Assembly (NCBI GenBank): GCA_029248105.1
Contig: JAQWJZ010000010.1
Coordinates: 1-64,000 of the forward strand
DNA length: 64,000 nt
Source of the DNA: Flavobacteriales bacterium
GTDB lineage: Bacteria; Bacteroidota; Bacteroidia; Flavobacteriales; UBA7312
Reading direction: 5' to 3'
This document shows positions 2,062 to 13,186 of the stretch, one piece after another; position 1 is the stretch's first letter; each line of letters starts with the position of its first letter. The notes beneath the pieces are model-generated. The model did not search any database. It had not been told where the DNA came from and saw only the letters and a list, made by a program, of their open reading frames with translations. Made by a program: the position numbers and the translations under genes.

Positions 2062-3108
2062 GTGAATTCTAAAAAAAGAATACTGATTGCCCCTCTAGAT
2101 TGGGGTTTAGGTCATGCTAGCCGATGCATTCCTATTGCTCAAGCATTAGAACAAAAGGGCTTTGAAGTGGTTTTTGCCTCTAGTGGTCGACCATTAGAAT
2201 TACTCATTCAAGAATTTCCAAAGAACGATTTCATTAAGCTAGAGAGCTACAACATACGCTATCCCAAAAATGGTAAAATGGCTTGGAGTATGCTTAGTCA
2301 GAGTTTAAAAATATGGAAAGGTATTCGCCAAGAGCATGCGCTATTACAACAGATTATAGATGATTACAATATTGACGGCGTCATATCTGACAATCGTTTT
2401 GGGCTACACTCCAAAAAAGTGCCATGTGTATTCGTTACCCACCAACTGAATATACAAACGCCTATTTTTTCAGATTTTATACGAAAAATGAATTTCAAAT
2501 ACATTCAAAAGTTTGACGAATGTTGGATTCCTGACTCTGACAATCATCAGCTAAGTGGTCAGCTATCTAAAGTTGAAAACACCACTTTCAACTGTCAGTA
2601 TATAGGGGCTTTATCCCGTTTTGAGAAATTAGAAAAAACTAAAGACATAGATGTTCTTGCTATCGTTTCTGGACCTGAGCCACAACGCAGTATGTTTGAG
2701 GAGTTACTAAAAAAACAACTGATAGAGGCGAAGTTAAAAGCCACATTGGTATTAGGTAAAACAGAAGAACATAAAGAAGAGCATATTGGAAAGCTCAAAA
2801 TTATCAGCCACCTCAACGCCAAAGCCCTCAATCAGGCTATGGTGAATGCCAAAGTGGTCATTAGTCGCTCAGGATATTCTACCGTAATGGACATTGCCAA
2901 ACTGAACAAATTAGCCATATTCGTTCCTACCCCCGGGCAAACAGAACAACTATATTTAGCAAAGTATTTTTACGATAAAAAATTAGCTTTTGCTATGCAT
3001 CAAAAGGAATTAGAGGTTCGTACAGCAATAGAAAAAGCGAGTGAATTTGAAGGCTTAAGCCTAGAAAAATTTCAAGCAAATTGGGATAGTCTGTTAAGCC
3101 TTTTTTAG
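2062..3108 (+). CDS. MurG-like glycosyltransferase (family 28-type fold)
   Basis: This is a cytoplasmic or membrane-associated glycosyltransferase of about 348 residues with a GT-B fold; donor and acceptor are unknown. The N-terminus KKRILIAPLDWGLGHASRC is the glycine-rich motif of the family, as in UDP-sugar transferases related to MurG. The C-terminal half has ISRSGYSTVMDIAKLNK and FVPTPGQTEQ, the expected nucleotide-sugar binding region. I choose the GTG at 2062; a TTG at 2005 would add residues overlapping the divergent trmB start. The gene overlaps the convergent phoR by 15 bp. Such stand-alone enzymes are common in Bacteroidota and are usually annotated only to family level. Confidence 0.8.
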   Translation: MNSKKRILIAPLDWGLGHASRCIPIAQALEQKGFEVVFASSGRPLELLIQEFPKNDFIKLESYNIRYPKNGKMAWSMLSQSLKIWKGIRQEHALLQQIIDDYNIDGVISDNRFGLHSKKVPCVFVTHQLNIQTPIFSDFIRKMNFKYIQKFDECWIPDSDNHQLSGQLSKVENTTFNCQYIGALSRFEKLEKTKDIDVLAIVSGPEPQRSMFEELLKKQLIEAKLKATLVLGKTEEHKEEHIGKLKIISHLNAKALNQAMVNAKVVISRSGYSTVMDIAKLNKLAIFVPTPGQTEQLYLAKYFYDKKLAFAMHQKELEVRTAIEKASEFEGLSLEKFQANWDSLLSLF

Positions 3109-4116
3109 AGTAAATGAAAAGGTAGTTCCCACGTTCTCCGTACTTCTCACATTAATAGTTTGTCGGTGAGCATCGACAATATGCTTGACTATAGACAAGC
3201 CTAAACCCGTTCCTCCTGCACTTCTAGAACGTGACTTATCTACTCTGTAAAATCTTTCGAATAAACGGGGTAGGTGTTCAGAAGGAATACCATCGCCATC
3301 ATCGGCAATTTCAACCAAAATATTTTCTCCCATTTCAAAAAGACGTACCTTGGTGTGTCCTCCTTCATTGCCGTATTTTATGGAGTTTTCAATAAGGTTT
3401 ATTAAAACTTGAGATATTTTATCTCTGTCTGCCTCAACAAAGTTATTTATAGATTGATTATTGATACTTAAAGTAATACTTCTCTTTTTGGCCTTCATCT
3501 CAAGAATATCAAACAACTCTTGAATATGATCAACGATATTCCAACGAGTAAACTCCAGCTCTAATCGATTCGACTCAATCTTGGATATCATCTCTAAATC
3601 TTCCACAATATTTATCATTCTATCCACACTTTTGCTAGAGCGTTCCAAATATTGCATGTTTACATTTTCATCTCTTATAGCCCCATCAATAAGCGTATGT
3701 ATATACCCTTGAATATTAAAAATGGGTGTTTTGAGTTCGTGTGAAACATTACCCAAAAACTCTCTTCGAAAAGACTCCATGTTTTTAAGTTCTTCTATTT
3801 CTCTTTGACGTTCATTAACCATCCTGTCAACATCTTCATCTACTTTATTCAAATCTGTTTCAACATCATCACTAACCCCTCTTTGTCTAGTCAGCGATTT
3901 ATAAATCACTTTTACTCTTTCATGAATGAATTTCTTTAAAAAAAGAAAAGAAATAATGTATATGGAAATAGTAGAGGATATAATAACTGTGAGGATTTGC
4001 CAAAATTGAATGGTGCTTTCTGACCAGAAACACATTAAAGAAAACAAAATAAAAAATGGAACTGACAAAGCAAGCGTCAAGTAAAAGGCAATTTTTTTAG
4101 GCGTTGTCCATTGCAT
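3094..4116 (-). CDS. phoR: PhoR-like sensor histidine kinase
   Basis: This is a membrane sensor kinase that should phosphorylate the response regulator encoded just upstream. Two membrane helices (about residues 9-31 and 38-60) are separated by only a few residues, so there is no periplasmic sensor domain. A charged coiled-coil stretch leads to the HisKA motif NVSHELKTP with the phospho-acceptor His126. The ATPase domain shows the N box NLIENSIKYG (240-249), DDGDG (272-276) and GGTGLGLSIV (301-310). Its ATG overlaps the stop of phoB by one base (TAATG), which suggests translational coupling. The phosphate assignment rests on kinase type, the phoB partner and the adjacent pst genes. Confidence 0.88.
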   Translation of the reverse strand: MQWTTPKKIAFYLTLALSVPFFILFSLMCFWSESTIQFWQILTVIISSTISIYIISFLFLKKFIHERVKVIYKSLTRQRGVSDDVETDLNKVDEDVDRMVNERQREIEELKNMESFRREFLGNVSHELKTPIFNIQGYIHTLIDGAIRDENVNMQYLERSSKSVDRMINIVEDLEMISKIESNRLELEFTRWNIVDHIQELFDILEMKAKKRSITLSINNQSINNFVEADRDKISQVLINLIENSIKYGNEGGHTKVRLFEMGENILVEIADDGDGIPSEHLPRLFERFYRVDKSRSRSAGGTGLGLSIVKHIVDAHRQTINVRSTENVGTTFSFTLKKA

Positions 4117-4796
4117 TAGTATTCAAATTTATAGCCTACACCTTTTACTGTTTTGATGTAGTGGTCGGCTAATTTCTCACGCAATTTACGAATATGTACG
4201 TCAATAGTTCTATCTCCTACAACAATATCTGTGCCCCAAACCTTTTCTAGAATTTCCTCTCTAGTGAATACTTTGCCGGGCTTGGATATTAATAACTTCA
4301 ATAGCTTAAATTCTTTTTTGGCGAATACAACCTCAACACCTTTGTAGGTTGTCATATGTTTTTCCTTGTCAATGACGATATCTCCCAATTCTATAATAGA
4401 TGTGGTGTCTTGTGTAATACCTCTTCGCTTAAGCAAGGCTTTTACTCTACTTATCAAAACCTTAGGCCTAATGGGTTTAGTAATATAATCGTCAGCACCT
4501 GCTTCAAAACCTGCTATTTGAGAATAATCTTCAGATCGAGCAGTAAGGAAAGTAACCACCGATTGACTCAAAGATGGTATCTCTCTGATTTTCTCACAAG
4601 TTGTAATGCCGTCCATATTCGGCATTTGAACATCAAGTATAATGAGTGAGGGCTCATGTTTTTTGGCTAATTCAATAGCCAGTAAACCATTGTCAGCAAC
4701 TATAACCTCATAACCTTCGGCACGTAAGTTATATCCTAGAAACTCTAAAATATCTTCCTCGTCATCAACAACAAGAATTTTAATTTCATTGTTCAT
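4116..4796 (-). CDS. phoB: PhoB-like response regulator (OmpR family)
   Basis: This 226-residue regulator has an N-terminal receiver domain with acidic pocket DDEED (11-15), phospho-acceptor Asp55 in LIILDVQMP and the conserved Lys107 in ITKP. A C-terminal OmpR-type winged helix ends in VVGDRTIDVHIRKLREKL and TVKGVGYKFEY. Members of this family bind tandem half-sites spaced by 11 bp, which is what appears before the divergent porin, pstS and the PiT-like operon. The gene is first in the phoB-phoR pair and is divergent from the porin across a 141-bp region. A TACTTTTG element lies upstream on its own strand. I did not see phased repeats oriented toward phoB. Confidence 0.9.
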   Translation of the reverse strand: MNNEIKILVVDDEEDILEFLGYNLRAEGYEVIVADNGLLAIELAKKHEPSLIILDVQMPNMDGITTCEKIREIPSLSQSVVTFLTARSEDYSQIAGFEAGADDYITKPIRPKVLISRVKALLKRRGITQDTTSIIELGDIVIDKEKHMTTYKGVEVVFAKKEFKLLKLLISKPGKVFTREEILEKVWGTDIVVGDRTIDVHIRKLREKLADHYIKTVKGVGYKFEY

Positions 4797-4853: not shown

Positions 4854-4881
4854 TTTACAATTTTTTAACATATACTTAATA
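4854..4881 (+). promoter_or_regulatory. Putative PhoB box before the porin (three 11-bp-phased repeats)
   Basis: TTTACA at 4854, TTAACA at 4865 and TTAATA at 4876 are spaced exactly 11 bp apart, the arrangement bound by PhoB/OmpR-type dimers. The last repeat begins 27 bp before the -7 element at 4903, so the box overlaps the -33 region as expected for an activator. The regulator assignment is inference from the neighbouring phoB. Confidence 0.7.
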
Positions 4882-5973: not shown

Positions 5974-6022
5974 TTTACAATTACTTAACATTATATATTT
6001 TAAAATTTACATTTTATTAATA
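5974..6022 (+). promoter_or_regulatory. Putative PhoB boxes before pstS (two pairs of 11-bp-phased repeats)
   Basis: TTTACA at 5974 and TTAACA at 5985 are 11 bp apart; TTTACA at 6006 and TTAATA at 6017 are again 11 bp apart. A degenerate third unit (GTAAGC, 6028) would sit 26 bp before the -7 element, matching the geometry at the porin promoter. PhoB binding is inferred. Confidence 0.65.
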
Positions 6023-9640: not shown

Positions 9641-10300
9641 ATGACACAATTAGAGCAAGAAATTAATGAATTGAGAAAGGAATTGCTGAACATGTTTTTA
9701 GCAGTAAATAATCAATTGCTAAAAAGTGAAAAAGCCCTTTTAGAATTTGACAAAGATTTGGCGGCTGAAATAACTAATGCTGAAAAAAGAATCAATTCTC
9801 TAGAGCTAAAGATCGATAGAGATTGTGAAAATATATTAGCCTTATATTCTCCTGTTGCCGTCGATTTGCGCTTTGTTCTTTCGGTATATAAAATCAATCA
9901 CGAATTGGAACGTATAGCTGATATTGCGGATGGCATCGCCAATTATGTCAATAATGTAAAAGATCCATTTCCTAAAAAAGCTATTGCCGACGTAAAGATT
10001 GAAGACATGTTCTCTCAATGTCAGGCTATGATGGATAATGTGATAGAGGCTTTTGAAAAAGAAGACACCAAAATAGCTCGTAGAGTTTTCAAACAAGATG
10101 AATTATTAAATACCATAAATTCAAACGGAAGTAGCGCCATCATAGAAAACTATGATGAAAAGAATGCAGAGGCATTATTCTATCTTTTGTCATGCGTACG
10201 AAAACTGGAACGATCAGGAGATTTAACAAAGAATATTGCTGAAGAACTTATTTTTTCTATCGAATCAAAAGTTATAAAGCACCGAAAAAATAAGCGATAA
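9641..10300 (+). CDS. phoU: Phosphate signalling protein PhoU
   Basis: PhoU links the Pst transporter to the PhoR kinase and keeps the Pho regulon off when phosphate is plentiful. The 219-residue protein is all-helical with two repeated three-helix bundles. The metal-binding ExxxDxxxD-type segments show as NHELERIADIADGIANYV and VRKLERSGDLTKNIAEEL. It is the last gene of pstCAB-phoU. Since PhoR here lacks a periplasmic sensor domain, sensing through PstSCAB-PhoU is the likely route. The first repeat of the next PhoB box begins 10 bases after its stop. Confidence 0.94.
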   Translation: MTQLEQEINELRKELLNMFLAVNNQLLKSEKALLEFDKDLAAEITNAEKRINSLELKIDRDCENILALYSPVAVDLRFVLSVYKINHELERIADIADGIANYVNNVKDPFPKKAIADVKIEDMFSQCQAMMDNVIEAFEKEDTKIARRVFKQDELLNTINSNGSSAIIENYDEKNAEALFYLLSCVRKLERSGDLTKNIAEELIFSIESKVIKHRKNKR

Positions 10301-10312
10301 ACAAAATCGCTT
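10292..10312 (+). other. Weak hairpin at the phoU stop codon
   Basis: AAGCGAT and ATCGCTT form a 7-bp stem with a 7-base loop that includes part of the phoU stop and runs into the first Pho repeat. There is no T run, so termination here would be inefficient. Confidence 0.35.
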
Positions 10313-10349
10313 AACAATTTCTTAACATTAGATTTACTTTCAATTAACT
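10311..10349 (+). promoter_or_regulatory. Putative PhoB box with four 11-bp-phased repeats
   Basis: TTAACA at 10311, TTAACA at 10322, TTTACT at 10333 and TTAACT at 10344 are each exactly 11 bp apart. This is the most regular of the three Pho-box candidates in the window. The last unit begins 26 bp before the -7-like element at 10370, matching the porin promoter within one base. Confidence 0.75.
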
Positions 10350-10369
10350 TGGAGTGAGAATTCATTGTG

Positions 10370-10377
10370 TTCATTTG
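10370..10377 (+). promoter_or_regulatory. -7-like element after the four-repeat Pho box
   Basis: TTCATTTG matches TAnnTTTG at all but one fixed position and lies 25 bases before the microprotein ATG. Its spacing from the Pho box supports it. Confidence 0.5.
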
Positions 10378-10402
10378 TATAGTACTAATAAAACACAACA
10401 CA

Positions 10403-10489
10403 ATGGAAACTACACAAAACAAATTTGACATCAGTAAATTACTCTACGTTGTTATCATGATTGCAGTATACACTATAGCTGTACTCTAG
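10403..10489 (+). CDS. 28-residue membrane microprotein, probably Pho-regulated
   Basis: A short frame starting at ATG 10403 encodes 28 residues: a polar N-terminus (METTQNKFDISK) and one hydrophobic helix (LLYVVIMIAVYTIAVL) filling the rest. It lies directly behind the best PhoB box and its -7-like element, and 30 bp before the PiT-like permease, so the two should share a transcript. I do not recognise a family. The tail of the protein is entirely membrane-spanning, like small regulatory subunits of transporters. A role as a partner of the permease or of Pst/PhoR is inference only. The frame could also be a non-coding leader. Confidence 0.55.
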   Translation: METTQNKFDISKLLYVVIMIAVYTIAVL

Positions 10490-10519: not shown

Positions 10520-11662
10520 ATGAAAAAATTAATGTCGAAGTTCAGTTACCCAACTAACTTATGGATTCATAAAGGTGAAAGAAACTTCCTTTCTTTCATA
10601 GTTGTCGCATTTATTCTCGCCATGTTCGTTACGCCATACCCTCAATTGGGAATGTGGGTAGGCTTTATTTTTGCAGCCTATGCTGCTGTTGCAAACGACA
10701 GTATCCAAACTCTTGGAACTTTCATTGCATCAAATCAAGACAAAAAGTGGTGGGTGCTCTGGATATTTATTGGGGGTATATTTTTATTTACCGTCGGCTA
10801 TTCATGGTTTAACTTTGCGGGTGATGTCAGCCATGGTCGACTCATGGCTAAAGGCTTTGAAAAAAGCCCAACAAACTTTCACTTCCTACAGATAGCAGCA
10901 CCTATATTTTTATTAATACTTACTCGTTTAAGAATGCCTGTTTCTACAACATTCATTCTATTAACATCATTTGCTGCTGCGCCAGCAGCCGTAGGCAAAG
11001 TACTTGCTAAGAGTATGAGTGGGTATGTATTGGCCTTCTTTATGGGCTTCATTATTTTTATGCTCATCTCTAAATGGGCAAAAGAAAAATTCGTTGGTGA
11101 AGCCAAGTTTGGCTGGACCATCGCTCAGTGGATTACTAGTGGTACCTTATGGTCAGTATGGCTAATGCAAGATGCGGCTAACATTGCCGTTTACCTACCT
11201 AGAAGTATGAGTTTTATGCAATTCATGGGTTTTGCTGGAGTCGTATTTATAGGACTAGGGTTGTTACTCTACTTCAAAGGTGGAAGAATACAAAAAATTG
11301 TAACAGAAAAGTCAGTAGTTACCGATGTGCGTTTCGCTACAATCATTGACTTTATATACTGTATCATATTGTTCTATTTCAAACTCTACTCACAAGTGCC
11401 TATGAGTACCACTTGGGTATTCATCGGTTTATTAGGAGGTCGAGAAGTTGCTATGGCAATAAGAAACTCAGGAGAAAATAGTACGGCTACAGCTGTTAAA
11501 TTATTAGTAAAAGATTTCTCATATGCTTTGATTGGCTTAATCATCTCTATAGCCATTGCAATAGGAGTTAATGATCAGCTTACATTTAGCTCAATGTTAG
11601 TAGAAATACCAAAAGAATTTGTTTCAGGTTTAACAAAATTCTTCGGAAAATTAGGCCTTTAA
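10520..11662 (+). CDS. PiT-like inorganic phosphate permease (divergent)
   Basis: This 380-residue inner-membrane protein has about ten hydrophobic helices. Two internal repeats carry motifs resembling the PiT family signatures: NDSIQTLGTFIAS (compare GANDVANA) with MPVSTTFILL, and QDAANIAVYLP with VPMSTTWVFIGLLGGRE (compare PVSTT). PiT proteins are ion-coupled phosphate symporters. The match is to motifs, not to a close homologue I recognise, so sulfate or another anion is possible. The phosphate role is supported by the position after pst-phoU and by the four-repeat Pho box upstream. The ATG at 10520 follows the microprotein stop by 30 bp, and a terminator follows the gene. Confidence 0.72.
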   Translation: MKKLMSKFSYPTNLWIHKGERNFLSFIVVAFILAMFVTPYPQLGMWVGFIFAAYAAVANDSIQTLGTFIASNQDKKWWVLWIFIGGIFLFTVGYSWFNFAGDVSHGRLMAKGFEKSPTNFHFLQIAAPIFLLILTRLRMPVSTTFILLTSFAAAPAAVGKVLAKSMSGYVLAFFMGFIIFMLISKWAKEKFVGEAKFGWTIAQWITSGTLWSVWLMQDAANIAVYLPRSMSFMQFMGFAGVVFIGLGLLLYFKGGRIQKIVTEKSVVTDVRFATIIDFIYCIILFYFKLYSQVPMSTTWVFIGLLGGREVAMAIRNSGENSTATAVKLLVKDFSYALIGLIISIAIAIGVNDQLTFSSMLVEIPKEFVSGLTKFFGKLGL

Positions 11663-11724: not shown

Positions 11725-12705
11725 ATGCATTGGGTATTCGATCAGACCGTATCATTTGAAGAAAAAGCATTGAAATTATTTCAGCTTCAAGCACAGCATT
11801 GTTCTGTTTATAAACGCTATCTAGACCTTTTAAAGGTCGATTTAAATGCTATTAATTCCATTGACAAAATTCCTTTTCTTCCCATCGAATTATTCAAGAA
11901 TAATCGAATAATATCTGATAACCAAAAACCTCATATTACATTTAGCAGTAGCGGAACAACAGGACAACAACAGAGCAAACATTATGTAGCTGATGCTTCA
12001 ATTTATCAAGACAGCTTCAAACAAGGATTTCAGCATTTCTATGGCAACCCTAAAGACTATCGAATCCTTGCCCTACTACCCTCCTACCTTGAAAGAGAAG
12101 GCTCTTCATTAGTGTATATGTGCGACCAACTCATACAAGAAAGCCAATACCCACAAAGTGGCTTCTATCTGCACAACATCAAGGAATTAGCTGAAATTTT
12201 AACCCAAGAATGTGAAAGAAAAACTTTACTTATTGGTGTTAGCTATGCGCTATTAGACCTTGTCGAATTAGGTCCTTTCAATTTAGAAAATACCATTGTA
12301 ATGGAAACAGGAGGCATGAAAGGAAAACGAAAAGAAATGATAAAATCGGAATTGCATTCCGTATTACAACAAGGGTTTTCTCTCCAAAATATTCATTCAG
12401 AGTACGGTATGACTGAATTGCTTTCTCAAGCTTACTCCAAAGAAAATGGAATTTTTGAAACACCACCTTGGATGAAAGTTTTAATTAGAGATACCGAAGA
12501 TCCACTAAGTATCTTAAAATATGGGCTAACAGGTGGCATTAATGTAATCGATTTAGCCAATGTAAATTCTTGCGCCTTTATTGCTACCCAAGATTTGGGC
12601 AAATCATTTGATAATAATACTTTTGAAATCCTTGGTCGCTTTGAACAAGCTGACATCAGGGGGTGTAACTTATTGCTCAATGAAAATGATTATACGAAAA
12701 GCTAA
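11725..12705 (+). CDS. LuxE-like acyl-protein synthetase/adenylate-forming enzyme
   Basis: This 326-residue protein resembles the LuxE acyl-protein synthetase family, which activates a fatty acid as acyl-adenylate. The phosphate-binding loop is FSSSGTTG (about 73-80) followed by SKH, and HSEYGMTELLSQAYS is the adenylation motif. The C-terminal DIRGCNLLL is normal for the family. No luxCDAB or reductase genes are nearby, so bioluminescence is not suggested. Flavobacteria carry such proteins alone, with unknown acyl substrate. Its end overlaps the GNAT gene by 26 bp, so the two are probably cotranslated. The start lies only 12 bp beyond the previous terminator. Confidence 0.8.
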   Translation: MHWVFDQTVSFEEKALKLFQLQAQHCSVYKRYLDLLKVDLNAINSIDKIPFLPIELFKNNRIISDNQKPHITFSSSGTTGQQQSKHYVADASIYQDSFKQGFQHFYGNPKDYRILALLPSYLEREGSSLVYMCDQLIQESQYPQSGFYLHNIKELAEILTQECERKTLLIGVSYALLDLVELGPFNLENTIVMETGGMKGKRKEMIKSELHSVLQQGFSLQNIHSEYGMTELLSQAYSKENGIFETPPWMKVLIRDTEDPLSILKYGLTGGINVIDLANVNSCAFIATQDLGKSFDNNTFEILGRFEQADIRGCNLLLNENDYTKS

Positions 12706-13186
12706 TAAAAACGAACTAGATGCTATCATGCAAGTGTACAAGTCTTGCGTGGAAGGCATGATCAAGTTAGGTATTGACCAATGGGACGAAACGTATCCTA
12801 ACAGGAAAGTCATTCAAAAAGACTTAGAAATTGGCGACTACTATGTAGGAGTTTTAGAAGACGAAATTGTTGCTGGCATCAAAATTGACAGAAAGCAAGA
12901 CCCTACATATCTGACTATTGACTGGGAAGACAAAAGCAATAAATTTATGGTAGTCCATCGCCTATGTTCTAAGACGAGTGTTTGGAATAAAGGAGTGGGA
13001 AGAAAAATGATGACTTTTGCTGAAGAATTAGCCGCAGAAAAGGGATGTATATCTATGCGATTAGACACCTACATCAACAATCCAAAGGCTATTGCCTTTT
13101 ATAAGCACATTGGCTACCAACAGCTTGGTCATATCAAGCTCAAGCCGCACAAAGACATCTACTATTGCTTTGAGAAAATCTTTTGA
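12680..13186 (+). CDS. GNAT-family N-acetyltransferase
   Basis: A 168-residue acetyltransferase of the GNAT fold. The acetyl-CoA site is visible as CSKTSVWNKGVGRKMMTFAEELA (the V-G-x-G-x-M loop), and LDTYINNPKAIAFYKHIGYQQLGHI is the closing motif B. Substrate is not readable. I place the start at ATG 12680 (MKMIIRKANKNELD); ATG 12686 is equally possible. It overlaps the upstream LuxE-like gene by 26 bp in another frame. The coupling raises the possibility that both act on the same small molecule or protein, which is inference. Confidence 0.85.
   Translation: MKMIIRKANKNELDAIMQVYKSCVEGMIKLGIDQWDETYPNRKVIQKDLEIGDYYVGVLEDEIVAGIKIDRKQDPTYLTIDWEDKSNKFMVVHRLCSKTSVWNKGVGRKMMTFAEELAAEKGCISMRLDTYINNPKAIAFYKHIGYQQLGHIKLKPHKDIYYCFEKIF

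Follow-up and report, generated by a model that had tools for sequence, protein, structure and literature searches.

A conserved family of single-helix microproteins encoded under a Pho box beside one clade of PiT-like permeases in Flavobacteriales

Introduction

The closest described counterpart of the locus reported here is found in Escherichia coli where, according to a review (PMC10710835, citing Yin et al. 2019), MgtS, a protein of 31 aa made under nutrient limitation, acts on the PiT transporter PitA; the same review places MgtS in magnesium homeostasis, with a further action on MgtA. The MgtS-PitA pair serves as a working precedent: here a PiT transporter is modulated by a helix of only some 30 residues. 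Small connectors of another kind, MgrB and SafA, act with the sensor kinase PhoQ, and intramembrane-sensing kinases of the BceS type receive their input from a transporter. For BceS, this driving transporter is reported to be BceAB (e.g. PMC10314905, PMC7828314).

We describe here a 28-codon gene found in a 64,000-nucleotide stretch of DNA from a Flavobacteriales bacterium, called the window below. As for MgtS and PitA, a single-helix protein of about 30 residues, probably made under nutrient limitation too, goes together with a PiT-like phosphate transporter. The gene differs from mgtS in its Pho box, in its place immediately ahead of the permease gene, and in occurring with one permease clade only; no sequence relationship between the two proteins is claimed. 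With MgrB and SafA, the product would share a single pass through the membrane, a gene inside a two-component regulon and a possible feedback on the kinase. Unlike them, it has no conserved cysteines and no periplasmic tail, ends at the membrane, and is linked to a transporter gene. The PhoR kinase of the window fits the plan of intramembrane-sensing kinases, with two membrane helices, a short loop and no sensor domain, and its candidate input is again a transporter; here, however, the transporter is a PiT-like secondary one rather than an ABC transporter, the response is to phosphate, a microprotein is involved, and flux sensing is putative. Compared with the transporter-modulating single-helix proteins (MgtS, AcrZ, KdpF), the microprotein is a genuine short one-helix protein, and it shows genetic linkage to, and probable co-regulation with, a transporter. 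The family is new, and the functional kind is already known.

Results

A 28-codon gene between a Pho box and a PiT-like permease gene

The original prediction proposed that an ATG at 10403 opens a frame encoding a polar N-terminus and one membrane helix, 30 bp before a PiT-like permease, and all of this is borne out by the sequence. The features of the window used below are the following.

3094..4116, minus strand: PhoR histidine kinase; a short loop joins its two membrane helices, and a sensor domain is absent (domain and helix prediction)
4116..4796, minus strand: PhoB response regulator (gene context)
9641..10300, plus strand: phoU, the upstream neighbour here, missing in most microprotein genomes (domain matches, genome content)
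10311..10349, plus strand: Pho box TTAACA-N5-TTAACA-N5-TTTACT-N5-TTAACT, four TTAACA-like repeats of 11-bp periodicity upstream of the microprotein gene
10373..10381, plus strand: probable Bacteroidota -7-like promoter element, around CATTTGT (sequence; the TTTG element recurs in relatives)
10403..10489, plus strand: microprotein gene, ATG to TAG, 28 codons, single-helix product METTQNKFDISKLLYVVIMIAVYTIAVL (family alignment, presence in 37 genomes, purifying selection, conserved helix face)
10520..11662, plus strand: PiT-like phosphate permease of 380 aa, the downstream partner gene; its sequence diverges from Pfam PHO4 (profile and fold comparison)

The microprotein frame is intact up to its stop codon (TAG, 10487-10489), and the ATG of the permease, at 10520, lies 30 bp past this stop. 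After the polar N-terminus comes a single hydrophobic stretch of about 17 residues, which reaches the C-terminus. An in-frame GTG is present upstream, at 10367; the starts of the relatives align with the ATG at 10403 instead. Neither Pfam nor NCBIfam gave a match for two members of the family, and the microprotein profile matched no PDB chain at E values up to 10. The family is absent from Pfam and NCBIfam, and was previously unannotated. Many members are shorter than 30 codons, which is close to or under the length limit that gene callers usually apply, so that annotation would miss them.

The frame is conserved and its amino acids are under selection

Relatives of the permease were gathered from whole genomes and from a public genome collection, and every short ATG frame upstream of them was listed. 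Within the close permease clade, almost every locus in the right orientation had the same short frame. A profile was built from the window microprotein and its relatives, and searched against 398 Flavobacteriales genomes, matches with E < 1e-4 being counted as strong. Strong matches were obtained in 37 genomes, and comparison with the permease positions placed all 37 immediately 5′ of the permease, in its orientation; no strong match away from the permease was found in the 398 genomes. The gene is single copy and fixed in position. Among 395 genomes sampled across the class, only weak and unconvincing matches were seen, the window's own match apart. The original prediction had proposed that related genomes be searched for the frame, and had named a lack of conservation there as its refutation; conservation in sequence, position and reading frame extends over 37 genomes, and the prediction thus clearly withstood this test.

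Family members are 25 to 33 residues long, each with a single hydrophobic helix. M1, S11 and Y15 are invariant in an alignment of 31 members, and D/E9, I/L18, M/L19, V22, F/Y23 and A26 are nearly invariant over 37 members. The helix face formed by S11, Y15, M19, V22 and A26 is conserved above the rest of the helix (p = 0.01), which suggests packing against a specific protein partner.

Ten close pairs of sequences differ by 117 substitutions, distributed 35/13/69 over codon positions 1, 2 and 3. They comprise 38 amino-acid changes, against 74.7 expected under neutral placement, and the lowest number reached in 2000 neutral simulations of these pairs was 61. Pairwise dN/dS values were noisy, as expected for so short a gene. 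The comparison of synonymous and non-synonymous change that had been suggested for this frame therefore puts amino-acid change well below neutral, and by this measure the amino acids of the microprotein are under strong purifying selection. On the strength of conservation and selection, the frame is a real gene and not a chance one, and it is very probably translated, with selection acting on the protein.

The microprotein is paired with one divergent permease clade

The permease is far from Pfam PHO4. Its score against Pfam PHO4 (E 0.016, 14.6 bits) is below the cut-off of 33.7, it has no match in NCBIfam, and profile searches of PDB chains with the permease and with the microprotein gave no sequence match. 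In a Foldseek comparison, a medium-confidence model of the permease had as its best match the PiT structure 6l85, a sodium-dependent phosphate transporter (probability 1.00, E 0.038, TM about 0.44). The motifs ANDSIQ and QDAANI are present, together with two P-x-STT motifs. Given its distance from PHO4 and its lack of an NCBIfam match, this clade would probably be missed by standard annotation of phosphate transporters.

Some structural variation was seen among these permeases. Members of the clade (window and L021-L058) carry a C-terminal extension of about 28 residues that is missing in more distant relatives. Large insertions of roughly 110-170 residues follow residue ~90-98 in L053, L056, L058 and G195; in L032, L040 and L052, the nearby loop holds a smaller insertion (about 18 residues).

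The microprotein accompanies this clade in 37 of 40 genomes; in all 21 genomes whose permeases are more distant (42-56% identity), it is absent. On the permease tree, this corresponds to one gain at the base of the clade (99/99 support), followed by two losses. The three exceptions (G051, G092, G250) keep the permease without the microprotein, meaning that the latter is not strictly required. Where it was lost, about a dozen permease positions have changed in the first lineage and a single one in the second; the two have no position in common, which leaves this comparison uninformative.

The gap between the two genes is mostly 9-73 bp, and reaches 142-197 bp in five genomes (L033, L037, L047, L055, L075). 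In three of these long-gap loci (L033, L047, L055), a hairpin followed by a T-tract lies 3′ of the microprotein gene; the hairpin is weaker in L075, and none is clear in L037. Ahead of the permease, four of the five carry a further TTAACA-type doublet, as read by eye, with one mismatch (L033, L055) or two (L037, L075). These hairpins and second doublets point to separate transcription units in the long-gap genomes.

A structural model of the pair was computed with AlphaFold2, the microprotein being joined to the permease by in-frame read-through of stops, with paired rows from relatives. From this shallow alignment of 27 rows, the permease was folded (block pLDDT mostly 70-85) and the microprotein helix was placed with a pLDDT of 30-46; the tethered model supports no interface, and speaks neither for nor against binding.

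A Pho box precedes the microprotein gene

As originally proposed, the gene follows the strongest Pho box of the window, made of four repeats, and a -7-like element. The only exact TTAACA-N5-TTAACA doublet of the window is found there, and the TTTG element lies downstream, at about 10376. The Bacteroidota promoter consensus is TAnnTTTG, which the element at 10373..10381 resembles. Weaker, one-mismatch repeats of the TTAACA type are present before the porin gene (4854-4881) and before pstS (5974-5990). As these other matches precede a porin gene and pstS, we read the TTAACA repeats as a PhoB site, to which PhoB would bind; the two weaker sites are probably other Pho boxes of the regulon.

The doublet is conserved in the family. 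Upstream of the start codon, 23 of the 37 distinct members have the exact doublet, 13 have a copy with one mismatch, and the remaining member has a copy with two. A doublet with at most one mismatch thus precedes 36 of 37 members, compared to 0.4% of shuffled sequence. The distance from its 5′ end to the start codon is 59-100 bp, and in most cases 87-95 bp. The other exact Pho doublets of the window's own genome, two sites, adjoin no evident phosphate gene. Two loci without the microprotein, L036 and L049, have nothing better near the permease than a doublet with three mismatches. Literature searches on Pho boxes and phosphate transporters in Bacteroidetes found no papers, and neither did those on small single-helix proteins in phosphate starvation.

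Most carriers lack detectable Pst and PhoU

Around the microprotein-permease pair, which is kept, the surroundings vary: the pair is found beside pst and phoU, as in the window, beside a porin gene, or beside phoB-phoR in either orientation. The frame had been expected between phoU and the permease; its usual site is instead directly before the permease, usually near phoB-phoR. PhoU was detected in 6 of the 37 microprotein genomes, PstS in 8, and neither of them in 28.

Single absences are uncertain in draft genomes, and we considered the 12 of the 37 genomes that are near-complete (at least 90% completeness, at most 5% contamination). In seven of them (G002, G006, G034, G043, G084, G125, G140), no PstS, PstB, PhoU, canonical PiT (PHO4) or NptA was detected, a pattern harder to explain by assembly gaps, and the PiT-like permease is the only phosphate importer recognised there. 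As these seven genomes keep the pair, a general dependence of the microprotein on Pst or PhoU is excluded. A genome of the same genus, G004 (95% complete), yielded no permease, microprotein, PstS, PhoU or canonical PiT; either another importer is used, or this is an assembly gap, and the absence of both permease and Pst suggests that such gaps may occur.

The statement that PhoR has no sensor domain was found to be correct, for the window and for its relatives: only HisKA and HATPase_c follow two membrane helices, which are separated by a loop of about 5-12 residues. In Flavobacterium, pstS is likewise scarce, and PhoR is annotated with HisKA and HATPase_c only (PMC8115612).

Discussion

The likeliest partner of the microprotein is the PiT-like permease, since the two are strictly paired within one permease clade; it would most probably serve this permease as a small accessory subunit or as a regulator. 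We propose that, at low phosphate, PhoB would switch on the microprotein and the permease together. The microprotein would span the inner membrane, its N-terminus on the cytoplasmic side, and its conserved face (S11, Y15, M19, V22, A26) would pack against the permease, whose stability, affinity or transport direction it may adjust during phosphate starvation. L036 and L049, which lack both the microprotein and a good Pho box at the permease, count in favour of this proposal. The usual closeness of phoB-phoR counts against it, since gene adjacency then fits a PhoR partner as well. The original prediction had the microprotein possibly modulating the permease, Pst or PhoR. A conserved, Pho-boxed, single-helix protein tied to the permease is what the comparison yields, with the permease and PhoR as plausible targets; Pst and PhoU fall away, most carriers having no detectable PstS and PhoU. 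On the genomic evidence, the microprotein probably adjusts the permease or its signalling.

In the main alternative, the microprotein would be a signalling connector. It would make contact with the sensor-less PhoR, either by itself or by bridging the permease and the kinase, and would signal the flux of phosphate or the occupancy of the permease in replacement of Pst-PhoU. As PhoR has the plan of an intramembrane-sensing kinase, the small membrane partner originally suggested for it is a reasonable candidate. PhoR has two helices, a short loop and nothing beyond HisKA and HATPase_c in the window and relatives, the pair is usually near phoB-phoR, and in 7 of the 12 near-complete carriers the usual input of PhoR is missing, along with canonical PiT and NptA. 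Against this, the strict linkage is to the permease and not to phoR, and three loci (L036, L039, L049) keep PhoB and the permease side by side without the microprotein. Moreover, a sensor-poor PhoR and a scarce Pst are also described in Flavobacterium (PMC8115612), and relatives of the microprotein were found only with one permease clade. We regard such a connector as possible and rather unlikely. Slightly more doubtful is the specific proposal that, in Pst-less marine Flavobacteriales, the permease and the microprotein together form a phosphate sensor in place of Pst-PhoU, with the microprotein passing the state of the permease on to the intramembrane part of the sensor-less PhoR.

It is improbable that the frame is a translated leader controlling the permease in cis, by attenuation or translational coupling, with a product devoid of function of its own. 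A short frame directly upstream of the permease, usually by 9-73 bp, and under a shared promoter, is what a leader would look like. However, the amino acids of the whole helix are kept by selection while synonymous sites change, and the 142-197 bp gaps of five genomes, with their hairpins or second doublets, make a leader role unlikely in those genomes. A toxin-like, membrane-active peptide, or a hydrophobic frame that arose by chance and travels with the promoter, would account for a product so short and hydrophobic, and is very improbable for a single-copy gene of fixed position, with conserved residues, a conserved helix face and selection, no relative away from the permease, and no antitoxin gene seen. 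Finally, an action on the Pst transporter or on PhoU, suggested by the place of the gene between phoU and the permease in the window, is hardly credible when neither PstS nor PhoU is detectable in 28 of 37 carriers, including seven at least 90% complete, and as obligatory or general partners both are rejected by the genome content of the carriers.

The permease-associated microprotein adds a conserved phosphate-starvation family to mostly uncultured marine bacteria. In many carriers, the recognisable phosphate machinery is reduced to the porin, the PiT-like permease, the microprotein and PhoB-PhoR, and the family makes it testable how PhoR learns the phosphate state without Pst, PhoU or any sensor domain. 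Besides MgtS-PitA, it would provide a second, unrelated case in which a PiT transporter is linked to a helix some 30 residues long.

Two minor observations concern the loci themselves. L027 (NZVG01000022.1) and L044 (PBNL01000034.1) are titled Euryarchaeota and carry permease and microprotein genes of the Flavobacteriales type; they are probably misnamed or mixed bins. A gene for a LuxE-like acyl-protein synthetase and the small gene next to it (11725-13186 in the window) are also found close to the phosphate cluster in many relatives, despite reordering of the other genes (L032-L035, L045-L047, L052, L055, L058).
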